Of a DNA stretch of 64,000 nt, positions 43,240 to 53,838 are shown piece after piece. The notes beneath the pieces were generated by a model, which did not search any database, was not told where the DNA came from, and saw only the letters and a list, made by a program, of their open reading frames with translations. Both the position numbers and the translations under genes were made by a program. The DNA lies in the NCBI RefSeq assembly GCF_005869845.1, contig NZ_VAWF01000004.1, forward strand, positions 1-64,000, read 5' to 3'. How positions within the stretch are numbered: position 1 is the stretch's first letter; every line of letters starts with the position of its first letter. This stretch comes from Fodinibius saliphilus. GTDB taxonomy: Bacteria; Bacteroidota; Rhodothermia; Balneolales; Balneolaceae.

Positions 43240-43941
43240 TCACACACTCTCCTTCACAATCCCAATTTCCTCCTCCAACTCGCTGGTGTCAGCTTTGAGT
43301 TCTACATTGACGGTGAGAATTTGATCGACGTTTGATTCAATTTTCTTTTTTGTATTATCATCTGCTTTAGCAATCGGAATATTACTTACATGCTGCCGGA
43401 ACCATCGCATTCTACCACCTTTATCAGGATCACCTAATACGGAAGAAACGCGCTTGTAGTAGTTAAATACAAGTTTAGAGTTGAGGATGCCCAATACGTA
43501 TTTGTCAGAGGATGGTATAAAATAGGCCGTGTTAGTTAGGTAATAACCTTCTGTATCTAATGTAAACCTTCTTTCTTTGGCAATATCAGGATAAATTATT
43601 TTAGGCTTTTCAAACTCATTATAATAATCGCATGCTCTTAGTTCCCAATAATGATCGCCTTGCTTTATGTTGATATCGATATTGGGCAGGACTTCTAAAG
43701 CCTGGTAGTCGGTATCTTTACGGTAATAAGCGTGCTTGAGGAGCTCGATCCACAATCGCAGTCGGCAAATATTTACCGAGTTGGGATTGATATCTACCCC
43801 GAACAGACAGTTTTCAATCAGAATATTCTTTTCACGGATTAGGACTCTTTGCAGGCGCTGGGTATCGCTGCCCACACTTCGCTCGATGTCACCGGTTTCT
43901 TTCCAGTCCGAGGTTACCCGGTACTCAAAAAAGGTAACCAA
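43240..43941 (-). pseudogene. Remnant of a type IIG restriction-modification enzyme
   Basis: The 233-residue frame holds two separated parts of an Eco57I/TaqI-like methylase. An internal piece, NCLFGVDINPNSVNICRLRLW, is followed shortly by IDINIKQGD. The frame then jumps to a C-terminal target-recognition piece (YPDIAKERRFTLD, YVLGILNSKLVFNYY, MRWFRQHVSNIPI). The section expected between them, including the catalytic NPPY motif, is missing, as are several hundred N-terminal residues. It is therefore not expected to methylate or cut DNA. Its 5' end is fused to another gene fragment. Confidence 0.82.
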
Positions 43942-44275: not shown

Positions 44276-44539
44276 TTATTCACGGGATCGGTCGTCGACA
44301 GCAATAGCCTGTTTAAGCTTTTCAACATCCTGCTCCATTTTAATAATGGTAGCCCCAAAGCCTGATATAATAGAAGTAACCGTAAAGCCCAACAGTCCCG
44401 TCATCACAAAATAGATATAGTCATCCTGCGCAAAGATACCTTGCTCTACCATTTTAACCCCGACATAAAAGCCGGCAATTGTTCCAAATATTATAAGCAG
44501 GAATAATCCAGCCTTAAACATTAGCATTAAAAACTTCAT
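44276..44539 (-). CDS. Small two-helix membrane protein at the end of the exopolysaccharide operon
   Basis: The 87-residue protein has two hydrophobic helices (~5-28 and ~40-62), followed by a charged helical tail (KMEQDVEKLKQAIAVDDRSRE) that probably lies in the cytoplasm as a coiled coil. It follows the GT2 gene after 69 bp on the same strand. Small accessory membrane subunits such as PgaD support GT2 synthases, so a similar role is a reasonable guess. Confidence 0.65.
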   Translation of the reverse strand: MKFLMLMFKAGLFLLIIFGTIAGFYVGVKMVEQGIFAQDDYIYFVMTGLLGFTVTSIISGFGATIIKMEQDVEKLKQAIAVDDRSRE

Positions 44540-44608
44540 AGGGTTTAACCCTCCTTTTATTTGTGATTAGATTTACTTCTTAAATTCTGATCATTAATAT
44601 CAATCCTT

Positions 44609-45910
44609 TTAAATACCCTTTTCTTTGGCATGGAAAGAAGTTTTCGCCGGATTCCACGGATCCTCGTAAGAAGTCTTGTAAAAGAATTCTTGTATATAAG
44701 CTATGGTGCGGACAAAACGAATATAATAGCCCGTATAAAGGGTTGATAGAGGTACAAGCATCAATAACCTAAGCTTATCCTTCACATGGTCTCTTAACAC
44801 CAGTGAAGCAAAAAATTGAATATAGTTTGAACACGTATAAAAAATGTAATTAACCGGAAAAACAATCACTATTAGCTTCGGCATATTTATAGCGACATCA
44901 ATCAAGTATATAAACCAGCCGAAATTTAAAACTAGATTATAAAAAATATTCTCCCAAGAAGAGAGCATATTCCGCAATGAAAAATTACGATTCAAAGCGA
45001 ATATATCGCCGTGCTTGCGAACCCTGAACCGTATTAGAGACTTACTCCATCGCAATCTCTGTTTCGTCAAACTATTAAAATTATCAGGCACATTTGTCAG
45101 ACAAAGGGCCGTAGGCTCAAAGTATATTTTATATCCCATCTTTCGAATCTTAACAGTGATATCCCCATCGAGCCCGGGACCAATATCCCAGCCGCCAACG
45201 CGCTCAATAACATCGGCCCGAAACGCCCCGTGCGCTCCAGAAACGATTCGTAAAAGCCCCAGGTACGACAATACCAACCGCCCTACCGATATGGTAGCCA
45301 TATACTCTATGGTCTGTAAACTTGTACAGATAGAATCATTGGTATTTCGGACTCCCAGGTTACCGGCAACAGCACCAATATCATCGTCATAAAAGAATGG
45401 AACCAGTAAATTTTCGATAGCATTAAAGTCTAACGAGCTGTCGGCATCCAGATGAACAATAAATTTACCTTTTGCAAACCGCAGACCTGTATTAGCGGCA
45501 GAGGCTTTTCCTCCTCTTACTTCATTACGTATAAAAAGATCAATCTTACCCTGTCGCTCTAATCGCCTGCCGATGGCTAACGAATTATCTTCTGAGCCAT
45601 CATCAACAATAATCAGTTGTATGTTGCGATAAGTCTGTTCTTCAAGGGTTCTTACTAACTTGTGATAGTTTTCCCCTTCGTCTTTTCCCGGAACCAGTAC
45701 AGTAACTAATGGCTGTTCATTCCAAAGCTTATTTCGAGCATTATCCCACGCATCTTTTTTAAAATTTCGATGCAGATGGTAAATAGCCAATATAACCAGA
45801 TCAAGTACAAGATATCGTGGTACTTCCACAAAAAAGAAGAACCAAAACATGCGCACAAGCTTGTCAGAGGACATTGAAGTCCAAAAGTTGACGAGGTCAG
45901 CTATTTCCAT
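44609..45910 (-). CDS. Processive family 2 glycosyltransferase, polysaccharide synthase-like
   Basis: The 433-residue protein has an N-terminal transmembrane helix. A GT-A catalytic domain follows with VDDGSEDNS, HLDADSSLD, GAHGAFRADV and the acceptor-site motif KQRLRW (QxxRW type), and the C-terminus has several helices (~310-410). This is the layout of PgaC, NodC and hyaluronan synthases, which polymerise and export a glycan in one step. It is the fifth gene of the operon. The sugar is not deducible. Confidence 0.9.
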   Translation of the reverse strand: MEIADLVNFWTSMSSDKLVRMFWFFFFVEVPRYLVLDLVILAIYHLHRNFKKDAWDNARNKLWNEQPLVTVLVPGKDEGENYHKLVRTLEEQTYRNIQLIIVDDGSEDNSLAIGRRLERQGKIDLFIRNEVRGGKASAANTGLRFAKGKFIVHLDADSSLDFNAIENLLVPFFYDDDIGAVAGNLGVRNTNDSICTSLQTIEYMATISVGRLVLSYLGLLRIVSGAHGAFRADVIERVGGWDIGPGLDGDITVKIRKMGYKIYFEPTALCLTNVPDNFNSLTKQRLRWSKSLIRFRVRKHGDIFALNRNFSLRNMLSSWENIFYNLVLNFGWFIYLIDVAINMPKLIVIVFPVNYIFYTCSNYIQFFASLVLRDHVKDKLRLLMLVPLSTLYTGYYIRFVRTIAYIQEFFYKTSYEDPWNPAKTSFHAKEKGI

Positions 45911-45967
45911 ATTATGATTTCAATTGTTCTCAATGACTGCAAAAAACTGGTGATAAGATGATAACTT

Positions 45968-46972
45968 TTATTCAAATCCACTGGTAGCAGCTTGCTCACC
46001 ACCTCGTGTTAATTCATAACGATATATTGTCTGACTATTCAGGTTTTCAATCTCCATATTGGTATTACAGTTCGTACACCGAGCCTTAATAATCACATCT
46101 TGAAAGGTATCCCCGCATTTTAAGCAAAAATATATTGCAGAAGGTTTGTCATAATCTACTCCAATATGTTTCAATGTTTTTTCGCATTTAGGGCAAATCA
46201 AATTACCGGGTTGCTCCTCAGATTCAAAATCTGAGACGGGACCAACGTAAGCACAAGGGAAATGATGCACAAGATCTTCTGATCGGAGATGAGAAGAATC
46301 GCAGTTTGGACATACCTCTCTGGTTAATAAAAAAGAATTATTACAGTTATAACACTGGTATGTCCTTTCCAGAAATTCCTGCGTTAGTAATCCCCGTTCC
46401 ACTCCAAGTTCTAATACTTTCAGAGCTTTAATTTGTTCGGCCGGTTCAAAGTTTTCGCTTAAGACGGGATAGTAAAAACCTAGTTCATTCTCATTAGTCA
46501 ATATTGGAGAGAGCTTCTTTTTTTGCCTGGTATACATAAACTGCAGTAGTTTTAGCAGTGTCACTTCATTATAAGATAGCACACTGCTTTTTTTGTTGGA
46601 CTCTATCTGCTGTATAACCCGCTCAATCGACTTTTTAAACCGATCAATATCAAATGGTTTAGGCAAGAAATCAGCTACACCAAGCTCGAAACCATCAACG
46701 GCATATTCTCTTGCCCCCGATACAAGGATAACAAACGGTGTTTCCTCGAGCGTTTGTAGATATTCTAAACCTGTAACCTCCGGCATCCGAACGTCAAGAA
46801 ACATGATGTCTACTTCATTACTTTTAAGCAGCTCATCGGCCTCTTTTGCATTTTCAGCTTTACCGACCAATGTTAAATCAACTCTTAAATCCTTCTTACT
46901 TTTCTCAATCATAGCCGTCATGAATTGACGAAAAGTAGGGTCGTCATCAACTATCAAACAATTAAGTTCCAT
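45968..46972 (-). CDS. Response regulator with zinc-ribbon (TackOD1-like) output region
   Basis: The 334-residue protein has a complete N-terminal receiver domain with Asp9-Asp10, phosphoacceptor Asp60 in MFLDVRMP and Lys105 in LPKPFD. A helical middle (~110-200) follows, then a cysteine-rich output region with pairs C207/C210, C221/C224, C260/C263, C283/C286 and C299/C302 plus HHFPC at 236-240. No DNA-binding helix-turn-helix is visible. The pattern resembles the TackOD1 output domain first described in thaumarchaeal two-component proteins; that assignment is mine by pattern. It lies between the adaptor genes and the glycan synthase, so it probably controls synthesis post-translationally. 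Confidence 0.82.
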   Translation of the reverse strand: MELNCLIVDDDPTFRQFMTAMIEKSKKDLRVDLTLVGKAENAKEADELLKSNEVDIMFLDVRMPEVTGLEYLQTLEETPFVILVSGAREYAVDGFELGVADFLPKPFDIDRFKKSIERVIQQIESNKKSSVLSYNEVTLLKLLQFMYTRQKKKLSPILTNENELGFYYPVLSENFEPAEQIKALKVLELGVERGLLTQEFLERTYQCYNCNNSFLLTREVCPNCDSSHLRSEDLVHHFPCAYVGPVSDFESEEQPGNLICPKCEKTLKHIGVDYDKPSAIYFCLKCGDTFQDVIIKARCTNCNTNMEIENLNSQTIYRYELTRGGEQAATSGFE

Positions 46973-47049
46973 CTTTATCAGATCTTTAAGTTAGCCGAAT
47001 TATCTACCTCAGTAACCCATTCGAAAACAGTTTATCGGAAACCAGCACT

Positions 47050-47412
47050 TTATGTTATTTCAACGGATTCGTCTATGTCCTTGGTTTTCTGAAGTCTTTC
47101 CAGAATTTGCCGTACCTTTTCAATGATCCCACCCAAATTATCTAACTCATCAATTACCTTATCAGCAGAAGCCCTGGTTAAGTCGGTAGTAATATCTGCC
47201 CGATCATATAACAATACGACCTTTAAAAAAAGGTCTGATTTTTCCGCAGACCTAATAGCATGTATTAATCGTCTTGTTAATTGATCTTCACTACAGTCTA
47301 TTATGATAATATCAGGGTTTTCGAGATACGAGAAATCTATTTTCTCATCATCTTTAAGAATTAAGAAGTTAATACCTTGTCGTTCAAATACTTTACCGTG
47401 AGAGTACTCCAT
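47050..47412 (-). CDS. Small degenerate receiver-like protein
   Basis: The 120-residue protein has an alternating alpha/beta pattern: NFLILKDDE, PDIIIIDCSED and LKVVLLYDRAD. A C-terminal helix IIEKVRQILERLQK ends the fold, as in receiver domains. The first acidic pair is poorly conserved, so phosphorylation is uncertain. It starts 1 bp after the HlyD-like gene stop and precedes the full response regulator. Function is inferred only from fold-like pattern and context. Confidence 0.6.
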   Translation of the reverse strand: MEYSHGKVFERQGINFLILKDDEKIDFSYLENPDIIIIDCSEDQLTRRLIHAIRSAEKSDLFLKVVLLYDRADITTDLTRASADKVIDELDNLGGIIEKVRQILERLQKTKDIDESVEIT

Positions 47413-47413
47413 T

Positions 47414-48517
47414 TTACAAAGCGAGTTGCGTTACTTTTACACTTTTACCAAAATAGTTCTGCCACCTGTTAATTGCCATGGAATCATCACGGACGGGGCG
47501 AATAAGAGCCCTGATAAACATCGTTCTACCCTCAATCGGATCAGTAGAAATGCCGGAAATCCTTTCTTCGGACCCCTCGAACCGGTGTATAATGCCAGTG
47601 TCTGATTGACCATCCGGAAATTGTACCGTTACCTCTTCACCGATACCAAGATCCTTGACTTGCTCGAAACTAAAGTAGGCTTCCACAAAAATACTGTCAG
47701 GCTTGTAGATGGTCATAACTGTATTTGAACCTGAAACCACCTCTTCTGGTTCCGAAGCAATATCAGATATTATTCCGCGGATGGGGGCCCGATAAAGACT
47801 TTTACTATAGTTGATATTGGCAATTGAAAACTCACCTAATTTCTGCCCCTTTTTGTTAATTAATTCTTCTCGTATAGTGGGTATTTGATTACGCTCGGTT
47901 TGAAGCAGTGAGATTTGGTCTTCCAAAAAATTTATCTGTTCTGTCAAGGTGAGGGCTTTTGAGTTTAGTTCTTGTAACTTTGTAGTATACGTATCCAACT
48001 TATCTCGCGTATGCAATCCCAAATATGTCTCCCTGTGAATTCGTTGTACCCTACTTTGGTAAAAGTTGGCCAACTTCTCTGCTTGGTTACGTTCAATCCG
48101 CTTAAATTTCAGATCTCTGCTTGTAATGCGAATTTGATCTTCTATTTTTTCACGCTGCTGCTGACGTTTTTCCATACCCTTGTTACTGCCAAAAAGCCCC
48201 AGGTTATCCATGTCATCTCTGCTTATATACGTAAACAACGAATCTTCAACCGATATACGATCTCCTTCATTTTTATAAAACTCAAGAAGTTTAACATCCG
48301 TAGGAAATCGAACTTTTACTTTAGCCGAACTAACAAAACCATTTGCTGTTATAAAGAAAAAAGTTGAATAGAGATACCTTCCAACAAAGAATAAGACTAA
48401 TACCGTAATCAATATATAGATAATCTCATCCCAACGAACGCCATCATCCGTAGAACGGGTAAATTCTTGACTACCCCCAGTCTTAGCATTTCCTTTTTTA
48501 AAGTCCTGACTCTTCAT
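47414..48517 (-). CDS. HlyD-like membrane-fusion (periplasmic adaptor) protein
   Basis: The 367-residue protein has a cytoplasmic N-terminus and one transmembrane helix (~32-55). A split lipoyl-like region follows (VKLLEFYKNEGDRISVEDSLFTYIS and, after the coils, YRAPIRGIISDI), with a long helical hairpin (~110-215) and a C-terminal beta domain. Such adaptors bridge inner-membrane exporters and TolC-type channels. Its start abuts the stop of the TolC-like fusion gene, and it is part of the same operon. Confidence 0.87.
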   Translation of the reverse strand: MKSQDFKKGNAKTGGSQEFTRSTDDGVRWDEIIYILITVLVLFFVGRYLYSTFFFITANGFVSSAKVKVRFPTDVKLLEFYKNEGDRISVEDSLFTYISRDDMDNLGLFGSNKGMEKRQQQREKIEDQIRITSRDLKFKRIERNQAEKLANFYQSRVQRIHRETYLGLHTRDKLDTYTTKLQELNSKALTLTEQINFLEDQISLLQTERNQIPTIREELINKKGQKLGEFSIANINYSKSLYRAPIRGIISDIASEPEEVVSGSNTVMTIYKPDSIFVEAYFSFEQVKDLGIGEEVTVQFPDGQSDTGIIHRFEGSEERISGISTDPIEGRTMFIRALIRPVRDDSMAINRWQNYFGKSVKVTQLAL

Positions 48518-50947
48518 TTACTGGTAATTAATTACCTCGTCATCCAGCTCTATAAGCCCACCGAGATCCTGTATCGATATTCGATTAAACATTAATCTCT
48601 CACTAACTTCTAACATAAAAGCCTCAAAAGCTACCCTATCTTTAAAATCACCCGTTCTTAGGGCTAAAACCGTTTCTATGCCCGACAATCTACGTTCATT
48701 TTTTGTGCTCTCGCTTATCTTTTCTGGCGAATCAGTACCATATGCCATTACATAGAGATCATCTATGTAGGTCTGTATCCTTTCTAAAAAATTATTGTCA
48801 TAAGTAACAGGAACAGATACCCCTAATTGTACATTCAGGGCAGATAATAAACTTTTTGTTTGCTGAAGCAAATCTATGTAGTTGTTTTGATAAAACAACA
48901 TTTTTTCATCCCAATCTTGAAATGTGTGCGGTTCAACATCTAAATGAAGCCCGTCATATCTCAAGGTATCTATCTGAGAAACATAACTATTTAATTTATC
49001 AATCCGATCTTTATTTATGAGTGAATTAACCCCAGCCAACAAATGCACCTTTATATCATGCTTGTGCATAGTACTTATGAAGCTGGCTACTTTTCCCGAT
49101 TGCGTTGCAGTTTCATCAGCAGAAAGCAACACCTTACTAATTCCATTATTAATAATGTATTCAGTAAGAAAGGAACGCCTATACTTGTTAAATGTCTCAG
49201 ACCAGACATACACACTGCGATTAAAACCATACTTTTTATATAATTCTTTTTGCCCTACAGCATCGACCAGCTCTGTTACTGGTCTATTGTCGACATAAGT
49301 ATAGATTTTGAGCAGTTTGAGATAAGCACTCTGTTTGATATCAATAATCTGAAGTTTAAGATCGAAAAGATCATTTATATGAGCCCATAGCATTGGGATA
49401 TTAAAGTTTGGGTCCCCAATTTTCCATCGAGTGCGATCTTTTCTGATTTTTTCTTCTGTATTTCTAAGCTTCGATACCGCCTCCAGGTATCTCCTGAATA
49501 TATGCTGGTAATCGTAGTAATGATTTAAAACCTGCTTTCTTGTGGTATACTGCTCCTGTTTATTTTCATATTTAAGCCTGTTTTTCTTTGCCTCAATAAG
49601 CTCTTTATTGCTACTCACTCCCAATGGCAAGGGCAAGCGCAATTGCAATCCTGCCGACATATATCCCCTATCTCCCTGGGTACCGCTTCCTGAGGAGAGT
49701 ACCGATCCAATGCCATCGTAATATGTATAGTCTACCGACAGATCTAAATTAACATCTCTCCAAGCGGAGTGTTCGCTTTCAATATTCTCAACTTGTAACT
49801 GGTATATCTGCTTTTCTTCAGCTGATTGTCTTACCCCTTGAAGAAGCTGATCAATCCTGATCTCAAGCATAGGCAGGTCTGTGGCAGGATCGATTTCAGT
49901 AAAAGAAATAGTATTAAGGGAATTGTAATTATTATAACTTTCAATCTGCTTTTTAGTCTTCTCCAGGTTCGACATTATATTAAGCACGTTTTCCCAATTT
50001 ATGGACTTCGCATGATAAAACTGACGGGCGTGCTTAGTTTGCTTTTCCAAAATAGTTCGCACCTTTTGGAGCAGATTTATTTTTCGCTTATTAAAAAGTT
50101 CAATGAACGCATTATACTGCTCGCTGTAGATCTCCTCTTTTACTGATTGCTTCTCTTTTAATTGATTGCTTTTAACCTCATTTTTCAGTTGTGCTACCTT
50201 TGCCCGATGCTCAAGTAGACCGCCACCTAAAAAATCCCATTGTATCCCTGTCTGGGCCCTTCTGCGATAACTTATTCCGGAACCAATAACCAACCCCTGG
50301 CCAAAGTTTTCAGAGAACGAGGATGCCATAGAAACACCAAGCTTATCCTTCTCATTCTCTATTTGTGCATTGAGCACTCTCCGATCATGATCATACGAGC
50401 TTGTTTTCTGAAATTCTTGAGAAAATATCTTTTCTACATTAGCTAATGAATTGTCCGTCGAATCTTTTTCTGATAGTAAACCAGACGACATGGTCTTAAA
50501 CATATCTCTAACCAATGAATCAGACGAGCTATACTTAAATGAATTTCTACGATATGTTAGGCCGACCAAGAGATCATTAGAAAACCGATCTTGATAAATT
50601 TCTGCTTTCAGCTGTACAGTAGGAGCTAATGTTATTAATACAGCTAACTCACTCTCACCATTATATGTAACGTCAATATTTCTAAAAGGGTACTGTACCT
50701 CCTCAATATCAACAGTATCCACTTTCCGTACCGGACTATTAAATTTTACCCTTATATCCCTAAAGTTAACTTGTTCAAGCTGATAAGAATCAATTTTCTT
50801 AGAAAGGTGTAACCGTACTACAAAGCCTCTACCGTCTTGCCGCTCAGCAGTCGAAACTTTTTCTACTCTTGATTGGCTGTTCACGTTTAAGGCAACAGCT
50901 AAAATTAAACCAATAAATATTAGTCCAAATTTAGTACCATCAAACAT
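48518..50947 (-). CDS. Fusion of AMIN-like, TolC-like and GH18-like domains
   Basis: The 809-residue product (ATG 50947; a TTG 21 bp earlier is less likely) has a signal peptide (1-~25) and an AMIN-like beta domain (~26-140). A TolC-type outer-membrane efflux region follows (~190-580, long helices with repeats such as IELFNKRKINLLQKVRTIL and strands YMSAGLQLRLPLPLG). The C-terminal part (~590-809) looks like a GH18-type TIM barrel with DGLHLDVEP, in which Asp670 and Glu672 match the DxE catalytic pair but His668 replaces the first Asp. Strands LGVSVPV and LYVMAYGT fit the later barrel. It is the first gene of the operon. Confidence 0.8.
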   Translation of the reverse strand: MFDGTKFGLIFIGLILAVALNVNSQSRVEKVSTAERQDGRGFVVRLHLSKKIDSYQLEQVNFRDIRVKFNSPVRKVDTVDIEEVQYPFRNIDVTYNGESELAVLITLAPTVQLKAEIYQDRFSNDLLVGLTYRRNSFKYSSSDSLVRDMFKTMSSGLLSEKDSTDNSLANVEKIFSQEFQKTSSYDHDRRVLNAQIENEKDKLGVSMASSFSENFGQGLVIGSGISYRRRAQTGIQWDFLGGGLLEHRAKVAQLKNEVKSNQLKEKQSVKEEIYSEQYNAFIELFNKRKINLLQKVRTILEKQTKHARQFYHAKSINWENVLNIMSNLEKTKKQIESYNNYNSLNTISFTEIDPATDLPMLEIRIDQLLQGVRQSAEEKQIYQLQVENIESEHSAWRDVNLDLSVDYTYYDGIGSVLSSGSGTQGDRGYMSAGLQLRLPLPLGVSSNKELIEAKKNRLKYENKQEQYTTRKQVLNHYYDYQHIFRRYLEAVSKLRNTEEKIRKDRTRWKIGDPNFNIPMLWAHINDLFDLKLQIIDIKQSAYLKLLKIYTYVDNRPVTELVDAVGQKELYKKYGFNRSVYVWSETFNKYRRSFLTEYIINNGISKVLLSADETATQSGKVASFISTMHKHDIKVHLLAGVNSLINKDRIDKLNSYVSQIDTLRYDGLHLDVEPHTFQDWDEKMLFYQNNYIDLLQQTKSLLSALNVQLGVSVPVTYDNNFLERIQTYIDDLYVMAYGTDSPEKISESTKNERRLSGIETVLALRTGDFKDRVAFEAFMLEVSERLMFNRISIQDLGGLIELDDEVINYQ

Positions 50948-51483: not shown

Positions 51484-52029
51484 ATGAATACATTCCAAAA
51501 CTATTGGTGTTCTGCCTGTGAATTGAAAGGTTCTTCAACCTGCACATGGGGAGATTTCTTTTATCAAATTGGTACCTACCGGTTTACTATCCCGAGAGGA
51601 GCCGGGGTGTGCTATAATTGTAACAGTATTACCGCAGTAGAAATACTGCCTGAGTATAAAATACTGCACAAACAAGCTAAACAACAAAAAGACAAATCAG
51701 TACCCACCTCTTATCTTGAAGAACAGCTTGAATTGGCAAGCTTGTTAGAAAACAGGGAGTCCATTGCACGATGCCTGGAATGCGGGAGTCATGATTTTCA
51801 GCTCATCCCTAAGATTGAGACCGATCAGGGGCTTCCAACTCTTAACATTCCTAAAAGAACAACCCTTATTCACAAAAAATGCGGGGGCAGAATCTTTGTT
51901 CGTCAACCGCTTCTTCATATTGATGATCACAACCGGAAAGAACGATTTTACACCAAAGAGGGTATCGAAGTAACTTATAACACCCATCCTACCTTAAGAT
52001 TTAAACGGATATTTGGACGTAATAATTGA
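51484..52029 (+). CDS. Zinc-ribbon protein of unknown function
   Basis: The 181-residue cytoplasmic protein has metal-binding-type cysteine pairs: WCSACELKGSSTC, GVCYNCNS and ARCLECGSHDF. A lone Cys in HKKCGGRIF follows, and the C-terminal third is basic. Between the pairs is a short coiled segment. I do not recognise the family, and it differs from the output region of the response regulator. It is divergent from the exopolysaccharide operon, so a regulatory link is possible. Confidence 0.7.
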   Translation: MNTFQNYWCSACELKGSSTCTWGDFFYQIGTYRFTIPRGAGVCYNCNSITAVEILPEYKILHKQAKQQKDKSVPTSYLEEQLELASLLENRESIARCLECGSHDFQLIPKIETDQGLPTLNIPKRTTLIHKKCGGRIFVRQPLLHIDDHNRKERFYTKEGIEVTYNTHPTLRFKRIFGRNN

Positions 52030-52086: not shown

Positions 52087-53838
52087 TTAGGAAAACATGG
52101 TACTGCCCACGCCTTTTACTGAAGACTTTTCAAATTGCAGCTCAAAGGTAGTCCCGTTATCAGTCTTAAACGCCCCCTCCCCGTCTAACTGTGAAATCAA
52201 TGTATTGATCAGCTGCATCCCGAGCGTTGAGGACCTTTGCAAATTTATACCATCAGGTATTCCTTGGCCATCATCATTAAACTCTAAGTGAACCTCGTCG
52301 CCTTTATCTTTGGCTTTGATTTTTATCATTCCATTATTTTCGGTAAAAGCATGCTTAAGAGCATTGGTGGTTAGCTCATTTACAATTAATGAGCAGGGAA
52401 GTGCTTGGTTGATATTCAAATCAATAGACTCAATATCATATTTAACACTCACATCGCTGTCAAAAGTATCAAGTATTCTTTCAACAAGACGCTTTACCGT
52501 TTTCTCGAAGTCAAGATTAGAGAAGTTTTGCTCCTGATATAATATTTCATGAGTGGTTGCAATGGAATTTACACGAGTCTGACTGTCTTTAAGCTTTCGC
52601 TCCAGCTCATTGTTATCACTCCCCATTATTTCTAAATCCATGAGGCCGGAAATAACCGCCAGGTTATTTTTAACTCGGTGGTGAATCTCACCGAGCAGCA
52701 CTTCCTTTTCTTTTAATGACTTCTGTAAATCCTGCTCCATTTTCTTACGTTCTGTAATATCGGTTGAAATACCAAAAATACAATTTTCATACTGGTCTAC
52801 ACCTTTCAAAAGCATCTTTGTTGACAAAAATGTTTTTACCTCTCCATTTATATTGATCTCCTCTTCAAACCGAACCGTATTTCCCGTTTCTCTAACATAT
52901 TCATCATTTTTCTGAACCTTCCGCCCCTTTTCCTTGTCCAAGAGCGATTCTCTTTGTTTTACAAAATCTTCTTCATCTCTCAAGCCAAAGAGTTTAAAGA
53001 ATTTTTCATTTGCAAACTTCAAATTACTTTCTTGGTCCTTGATGTACATTACTGAATCCGATTGGTCAATTATGGCCTGTAACAGGTTTTGGTGAATTTC
53101 GGCTTTTCGTTGAGCTTCAATAACGTTCGAAACATCAATACCAATGCCGAGCACGCACTCTTCTCCTTCCATTACTACTTTACTAGCTTTAAATAGCAAT
53201 GGAGTCTTTTCACCATCCTTACCCTGAAGGCGCCCTCTCGCTTCCACATATCCCTCTTCAATAACTGTTTCTATAACTTTCGACATCTTCGGTTTAGCCT
53301 CCTCCGCAAAGAAATCTATCGCATTCATCGATGCAATTTCCTCACTCGAATAACCGGTGACTTGCTTTACATATTCATTCCAGCGGATCATAGCACCGTC
53401 CGTATCAAAGATGAAGAATGTGCCCGGTAGTTTCTTTGTAATTAGATCAAGGATCTGCTTTCTTGACTTTAGTTTGGTTTCAATATCTTTTTGTTTTGTA
53501 ACATCATTTGCAACAATGAGCTTGCACTCTTGGTCTTCAACGCGAATAGAACATCCTTTTTCATGGATGTAAATAACATCTCCATCCTTTGTATTATGCT
53601 TCCATACCCCCGATTTTTCAGCTTCATCAACTTCGGATTCAAGAACCTGCGGCAATTTAATATTATCTTCTCGTGAGTGCAGATCCTGAACAGTCAAAGA
53701 AAGCATCTCTTGACGCGAGTAGCCATACAGAGAAAGAGCCGCATTATTAACATCTATTATTTCAAGCGTGTTAACGTTATAGATCCACATTGGGCTGGAA
53801 TCATCGCGGAAACAGATTTCTACATTGTTGAGGGACAT
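52087..53838 (-). CDS. Triple-PAS sensor histidine kinase (HisKA_2 type)
   Basis: The 583-residue soluble kinase has three PAS domains (~5-115, ~125-245, ~250-370), each with recognisable PAS patterns such as IIDVNNAALSLYGYSRQEM. The HisKA_2 domain has phosphoacceptor His387 in EIHHRVKNNLAVISGL, and the HATPase domain has LIVNELTTNALKHAF and DDGQGIPDG. There is no membrane helix. No regulator is adjacent; the nearest one is the zinc-ribbon response regulator 5 kb away, a plausible partner. Confidence 0.9.
   Translation of the reverse strand: MSLNNVEICFRDDSSPMWIYNVNTLEIIDVNNAALSLYGYSRQEMLSLTVQDLHSREDNIKLPQVLESEVDEAEKSGVWKHNTKDGDVIYIHEKGCSIRVEDQECKLIVANDVTKQKDIETKLKSRKQILDLITKKLPGTFFIFDTDGAMIRWNEYVKQVTGYSSEEIASMNAIDFFAEEAKPKMSKVIETVIEEGYVEARGRLQGKDGEKTPLLFKASKVVMEGEECVLGIGIDVSNVIEAQRKAEIHQNLLQAIIDQSDSVMYIKDQESNLKFANEKFFKLFGLRDEEDFVKQRESLLDKEKGRKVQKNDEYVRETGNTVRFEEEININGEVKTFLSTKMLLKGVDQYENCIFGISTDITERKKMEQDLQKSLKEKEVLLGEIHHRVKNNLAVISGLMDLEIMGSDNNELERKLKDSQTRVNSIATTHEILYQEQNFSNLDFEKTVKRLVERILDTFDSDVSVKYDIESIDLNINQALPCSLIVNELTTNALKHAFTENNGMIKIKAKDKGDEVHLEFNDDGQGIPDGINLQRSSTLGMQLINTLISQLDGEGAFKTDNGTTFELQFEKSSVKGVGSTMFS

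Follow-up and report, generated by a model that had tools for sequence, protein, structure and literature searches.

A TolC channel fused to a GH18-type barrel in a conserved Bacteroidota locus that probably serves synthase-dependent exopolysaccharide secretion

We have analyzed a stretch of 64,000 nucleotides from Fodinibius saliphilus (contig NZ_VAWF01000004.1, positions 1 to 64,000; the window hereafter) and found that six open reading frames (ORFs), all on the minus strand and running from 50947 to 44276, probably encode a system for synthase-dependent exopolysaccharide secretion through a TolC-type exit. In order, their products are an 809-aa fusion of a TolC-family channel with a glycoside-hydrolase-type barrel, a 367-aa HlyD-family adaptor, a 120-aa protein, a 334-aa receiver-TackOD1 protein, a 433-aa family 2 glycosyltransferase (GT2) and an 87-aa protein with two transmembrane (TM) helices. 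The gaps between them are 0, 1, 77, 57 and 69 bp. The six genes in one direction described by an earlier, sequence-only reading of this DNA are present as described. The parts of the locus are the following.

48518..50947, minus strand: 809-aa fusion with signal peptide, amidase-type N-terminal domain, TolC-family outer membrane channel and C-terminal GH18-fold barrel (ORF, PF02321, AlphaFold, structure searches)
50498..50881, minus strand: N-terminal amidase-type domain, residues ~23-150 of the fusion (phmmer; low-confidence model)
49271..50443, minus strand: TolC-fold channel, residues 169-559 of the fusion (VIA-align, Foldseek)
48521..49228, minus strand: GH18-fold (beta/alpha)8 barrel, residues 574-809 of the fusion (VIA-align)
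48932..48940, minus strand: DxE catalytic motif of the barrel, D670-V-E672 within DGLHLDVE (74-sequence alignment)
47414..48517, minus strand: HlyD-family periplasmic adaptor, 367 aa, single N-terminal TM helix (PF13437, E 6.5e-10; hydropathy)
47050..47412, minus strand: 120-aa degenerate-receiver-like module (fused to the TackOD1 N-terminus in other lineages)
45968..46972, minus strand: 334-aa response regulator, receiver plus TackOD1 zinc-ribbon output domain (PF00072, E 4.1e-21; PF18551, E 1.5e-51)
44609..45910, minus strand: 433-aa membrane GT2 of processive type, with DDGS, DAD, GPGLDGD and QRLRW (PF00535, PF13641; motifs)
44276..44539, minus strand: 87-aa two-TM protein 3' of the GT2 (ORF; without relatives in the fetched loci)

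In the fusion, residues 385-550 match the Pfam family OEP (PF02321, E 8.4e-9, 35.9 bits against a gathering score of 22), and a phmmer search of the fusion against the PDB gave no meaningful match, structure being needed to see the domains. The AlphaFold model, built on ten relatives (pLDDT 70 overall, mostly 80-93 in the barrel), has TolC topology, with two beta-beta-long helix-helix repeats over residues ~205-549, followed by a complete barrel of eight strands alternating with helices at residues 576-792. Foldseek matched the fusion to TolC 9v52 (E 6.5e-11). With VIA-align, residues 173-559 matched TolC 7ng9 (Z 18.3; 1ek9, Z 17.9) and residues ~574-809 matched GH18-fold chains at Z 17.7-20.9. 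A TolC-like channel and a GH18-like barrel in one polypeptide had been proposed in the sequence-only reading, with structure prediction as the way to check it, and both the TolC fold and the TIM barrel are there. The further likeness drawn with PgaB holds for the fold, as the PgaB C-terminal domain (4p7o) is among the barrel matches (Z 18.1); it does not extend to the motif, since PgaB, a GH153 protein, lacks the GH18 motif (PMC5933820) and the window barrel keeps its DxE.

The model makes the C-terminal barrel GH18-type in fold, its membership in the GH18 family being unproven. In the barrel alignment D670, E672, M734, Y736 and D767 are invariant (74/74). The window reads DGLHLDVE where the complete motif would be DGxDxDxE, with D670 and E672 kept. 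Because the DxE set is invariant but H668 and G737 depart from the consensus, we consider that the barrel is probably catalytically active and do not assign it to GH18. A relative (L054) gave a sub-threshold PF00704 match (E 2.1e-5, 24.8 bits, cutoff 29.6). Since TolC has its N- and C-termini in the periplasm, both added domains, the barrel and the amidase-type one, should lie there around the channel, and the barrel could reach polymer leaking from the conduit but none that has already left the cell. The earlier idea of glycan trimming at the outer membrane is best recast as processing or clearance in the periplasm, next to the channel. Two other proteins are related to this architecture. One is a 774-aa protein (L062 1631-3955) sorted by the type IX secretion system (T9SS); its N-terminal part is picked up by the GH18-type barrel profile at E 2e-17, and it has no TolC part. 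The other is a 536-aa TolC (L061 8894-10504) with a C-terminal tail that by eye resembles a reduced barrel lacking the DxE core; the GH18 profile did not detect this tail.

The four-gene core fusion-HlyD-TackOD1-GT2 is conserved across Bacteroidota. A single-sequence contig scan with the window fusion found nothing. We searched with a TackOD1 profile, which gave 460 relatives in named genomes, and fetched the best-scoring 80 loci. Judged by record title, these belong to Bacteroidota, from Balneolales to Flavobacteriales, Chitinophagales, Sphingobacteriales and Cytophagales, apart from one record titled Kuenenia, which is possibly a labelling error. The genes follow the order fusion, HlyD, TackOD1, GT2 on one strand in 71 of these loci (a few of the fusions being cut or split by contig ends), and in the remaining nine the contig begins or ends inside the module. 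Median gaps within the core are 2, 2.5 and -1 bp. The GH18 barrel is present in all 73 loci whose contig extends far enough, and five close relatives have the same gene order as the window. The module is not a chance assembly, because the same set is found again in Bacteroidota, each protein at about 20-55% identity. The full fusion was found in 9 of 92 family genomes, more distant forms also existing, and the fusion profile hit 12 of 395 phylum genomes, although this profile is narrow and may under-report distant fusions. PF18551 above its cutoff and the GT2 profile (E <= 1e-100) picked out the same 12 of the 395 genomes and the same 13 loci. Fisher's p for this co-occurrence is 4e-23, a value that ignores relatedness. 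The gene-order search across Bacteroidota suggested with the sequence-only reading thus shows that the locus is not a lineage-specific oddity.

The GT2 is consistent with a processive-type inner-membrane synthase, judged from its sequence. It matches PF00535 and PF13641 (E 1e-21), and the QRxRW motif and a processive-type membrane architecture are conserved across 73 GT2s. With the HlyD_3 match of the adaptor (E 6.5e-10), this agrees with the earlier suggestion of an adaptor and a processive GT2 in synthase-dependent glycan secretion. The best NCBIfam equivalog is PgaC_IcaA (175.8 bits, curated cutoff 422.3); the next model reaches 110 bits, NodC 71.5 bits and CelA 19.6 bits (cutoff 699). We favour an N-acetylhexosamine (HexNAc) polymer as the likeliest, unproven product because PgaC is the nearest synthase, the chitinase fold carries DxE and deacetylases are found nearby. 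These last are a T9SS-secreted family with polysaccharide-deacetylase matches that flanks about a dozen loci. The matches exceed the Pfam cutoff in L071, L089 and L104 and are less strong in L080 and L110, while BLAST clustering alone places the remaining members. The core has no conserved sugar-nucleotide gene, and the precursor is therefore likely to be a housekeeping one.

A variant of the module was found in three Balneolaceae loci. These sister operons consist of a TolC without GH18, HlyD, a TviB-like dehydrogenase, TackOD1 and GT2, and are located as follows.

L055, 7312-14338: sister operon
L058, 8197-17153: sister operon
L059, 998-9714: sister operon

Kinase and receiver genes precede them, and their channel proteins have no detectable GH18 domain. 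The dehydrogenase is closest to TviB, the UDP-N-acetylglucosamine (UDP-GlcNAc) dehydrogenase of the Vi antigen, and a HexNAc-uronate polymer is predicted for these operons. One genome (G103) holds both operon types within about 25 kb. A hydrolase matched to an uncharged polymer would fit the absence of GH18 from dehydrogenase operons, in three loci of one family. The channel of L061 is also without a GH18 domain, yet no dehydrogenase lies beside its gene, and in the fusion loci L079 and L092 a related dehydrogenase is encoded on the opposite strand at a distance of a few kb.

The TackOD1 regulator is the most constant partner of the synthase, and this constant adjacency to the GT2 gene suggests that the TackOD1 protein controls the enzyme, possibly by direct contact. 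The 334-aa protein scores 175.1 bits against PF18551 (cutoff 32), and 11 Cys columns are kept at >=95% across 82 TackOD1 proteins; VIA-align rows for the regulator are receiver domains. Balneolaceae encode the degenerate-receiver module in a gene of its own and have a TackOD1 protein with its own receiver; in the other lineages module and TackOD1 form a single protein. Separate or fused, the module is present in 80/80 loci (median i-E 6e-15). The two signalling proteins recognized earlier are then a 120-aa degenerate-receiver-like protein and a 334-aa receiver protein, the TackOD1 output domain of the latter having escaped notice. Relatives of the regulator are ~480 aa long and end in a domain with the GGDEF helix/strand order (in the model of one relative) and with sub-threshold GGDEF Pfam matches, which agree in pointing to a GGDEF origin. 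An active GGDEF domain was rejected, as the motif position reads SSSTI, NSSTL, NPSVL and similar, and neither GGDEF nor GGEEF is among the 30 commonest motif forms listed. The window protein is without this tail. A frameshift as the cause of its length was also rejected, there being only 57 bp to the GT2 gene and the GGDEF-like tail being absent. About 1.1 kb upstream of the operon (52087-53838, minus strand) lies a PAS-PAS-PAS HisKA_2 histidine kinase gene; a histidine kinase is directly upstream of the module in L032, about 14 of the 80 loci have one in their flank, and HisKA_2 kinases recurring beside the module may be the cognate type.

From the computed domains, folds, motifs, gene order and co-occurrence we infer the polymer, the hydrolase activity, the assembly and the direction of regulation as follows. 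The inner-membrane GT2 would polymerise a nucleotide sugar, with UDP-GlcNAc or a close HexNAc relative as the likeliest substrate, and thread the growing chain through the inner membrane. The HlyD adaptor would join it to the TolC part of the fusion, making a closed conduit over the periplasm and outer membrane. Each channel trimer would carry three barrels on its periplasmic C-termini, and these would cut chains stalled or leaked in the periplasm and/or set chain length, as AlgL and PgaB do. The amidase-type domain of the window fusion would probably anchor the complex to peptidoglycan, and the receiver-TackOD1 protein and its degenerate-receiver partner would probably turn the synthase on or off through protein contact following phosphorylation. 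That this describes a phylum-wide Bacteroidota class, a synthase-HlyD-TolC trimer with three periplasmic GH18-type hydrolases, switched by phosphorylation via TackOD1 and a degenerate GGDEF and not by cyclic di-GMP (c-di-GMP) on PilZ or PgaD, is a conjecture that we find plausible while leaning slightly against it.

Four synthase-dependent systems are usually listed, those of cellulose, alginate, Pel and poly-N-acetylglucosamine (PNAG), all with a tetratricopeptide repeat (TPR)-type periplasmic scaffold and a porin (PMC9384988). The six locus proteins, the only ones searched for it, gave no TPR family match and have a TolC-fold channel instead; Pfam likewise found no deacetylase family and no PilZ in them. 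The best reading is that a TolC/HlyD conduit replaces the TPR-plus-porin exit of those systems. Every known synthase-dependent operon encodes an enzyme degrading its own polymer, and periplasmic clearance, shown for AlgL, has been proposed for other such systems (PMC8829089); PgaB has a processing role (PMC9384988). The predicted periplasmic placement of the barrel matches both roles. The alginate system (AlgL, AlgK, AlgE, Alg8/Alg44) shares the synthase-dependent logic and an enzyme clearing periplasmic polymer, but its lyase, porin and TPR protein are separate and its control is by PilZ. PgaABCD shares a GT2, PgaC being the nearest to ours, and a glycoside-hydrolase-type TIM barrel predicted to be periplasmic. 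It differs in that PgaA is a TPR plus beta-barrel porin and PgaB a deacetylase-GH153 protein, while the window has a TolC channel with a DxE GH18-type barrel and is without PgaD, an in-operon deacetylase or a recognised c-di-GMP part. The nearest precedent is XcsAB-TolC, a proposed and unverified model for tripartite cellulose secretion in cyanobacteria (Maeda et al. 2018, reviewed in PMC12430437), with a GT2 synthase, an HlyD-like adaptor and a TolC-like channel. There, however, the genes are scattered, the synthase is a PilZ cellulose synthase and the endoglucanase is separate; the window has one operon with a PgaC-side GT2, a TolC-fused GH18 barrel and TackOD1 instead of PilZ. Thaumarchaeota have the same receiver plus TackOD1 (PF18551, arCOG06883) with conserved CxxC motifs. 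There it is linked to type IV pilus loci (PMC4858521, PMC5847659), here to a glycan synthase, and relatives of the window protein add a degenerate GGDEF. The function of this widespread output domain has been called obscure (PMC5847659). As the sequence-only reading supposed, no named system with these parts was found in the open-licence literature searched. If the proposal is true, hundreds of Bacteroidota hold a further, TolC-type synthase-dependent design with a polymer-cutting domain built into the exit channel. Polysaccharide passage via TolC/HlyD conduits, proposed and unproven in cyanobacteria (PMC12430437), would become testable, as would what TackOD1 does (PMC5847659); phosphorylation switching of the synthase would be its first functional role.

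Other explanations have to be weighed against this one. A rearranged PNAG system, in which a divergent PgaC makes poly-beta-1,6-GlcNAc partly deacetylated by enzymes encoded elsewhere, would account for the nearest equivalog, the Z of 18.1 with PgaB, the deacetylase-type neighbours of some loci and two PF01522 proteins encoded elsewhere in the source genome. We hold it unlikely, though still a serious candidate, given a GT2 score far under the PgaC cutoff, the absence of a PgaA TPR-porin, PgaD and a PgaB deacetylase domain from the locus, a catalytic motif that PgaB lacks, and a linkage that is not readable from sequence. The cyanobacterial combination of GT2, HlyD-like protein and TolC (PMC12430437) and the departure of the window barrel from the GH18 consensus at H668 and G737 would also suit a cellulose-like glucan exporter with the barrel as a glycan-binding guide and not a chitin-type hydrolase. 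This seems to us quite improbable when CelA scores so much lower than PgaC, the core has neither PilZ domain nor cellulase, and DxE is invariant in all 74 barrels. Export of a short glycan or glycolipid (a NodC-like oligosaccharide or a decorated lipid), with no polymer and the barrel remodelling the cargo, could be read from the NodC match. TolC/HlyD systems often move small molecules, glycolipids in cyanobacteria. We regard such an exporter as very improbable, since QRxRW and the membrane architecture kept in the 73 GT2s are typical of processive synthases and no acyltransferase, lipid gene, ABC, RND or MFS pump is among the conserved neighbours. As for the barrel itself, its structural matches in VIA-align include the chitinase-like proteins IDGF-2, YKL-39 and Ym2, which are not known to have enzymatic activity. 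These matches and the two substitutions would suit a catalytically dead scaffold or lectin-like gate, an option that the five residues kept in every barrel despite wide divergence render rather doubtful.

Several points weigh against the TolC-type exopolysaccharide system itself. TolC/HlyD pairs serve mostly efflux and type I secretion, and the contacts of HlyD and TackOD1 with GT2 are suggested by gene order only. The similarity of the GT2 to PgaC falls well below equivalog level, and no deacetylase or sugar-nucleotide gene is in the window operon. The window protein gave no Pfam GH18 (PF00704) match; H668 replaces the first of the inner Asp residues in DGxDxDxE, as His does in 72/74 barrels, and the residue after MxY is Gly (G737) in the window and Glu in 69/74. 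Besides, the 80 loci, as the best-scoring of the 460, are those closest to the window, and less similar arrangements are under-sampled.

The amidase-type N-terminal domain is a window-specific accessory outside the conserved core, because relatives of the fusion are without it, two of them carrying a BNR-type propeller in its place and others nothing. Residues about 7-150 share homology with the N-terminal domain found in the Amidase_3 proteins (N-acetylmuramoyl-L-alanine amidases) of the family (17 proteins matched by phmmer at E 2e-16 to 4e-12; L002 is Amidase_3). The AMIN-like leader described earlier is right in this homology; a formal AMIN identity was rejected, as PF11741 gave no Pfam match up to E 10. 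The propeller fusions (L072 805-3450, L080 4922-7582) are TolC-GH18 proteins with an N-terminal PSII_BNR/YCF48-like propeller. In L010 (1441-2586) the amidase-type domain heads an outer membrane beta-barrel protein, so this domain moves between envelope proteins. The small membrane protein that had been counted in the system is a real two-TM ORF of 87 aa with no relative in any fetched locus; seen in the window only, it is probably outside the core and was rejected as a PgaD counterpart. Neither it nor the 120-aa protein has a Pfam match, and a promoter and terminator scan gave no more sites than shuffled sequences.

Two neighbours of the operon are worth a mention. Just upstream, on the opposite strand (51484-52029, plus), is a gene for a protein of 181 aa, rich in cysteine and with CxxC pairs, that matches nothing in Pfam or NCBIfam. 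On the other side (43240-43941, minus) a 233-aa Eco57I/PglX-like DNA methyltransferase piece (TaqI_C, Eco57I; weak BREX PglX matches) is far below whole-enzyme length and resembles a remnant.

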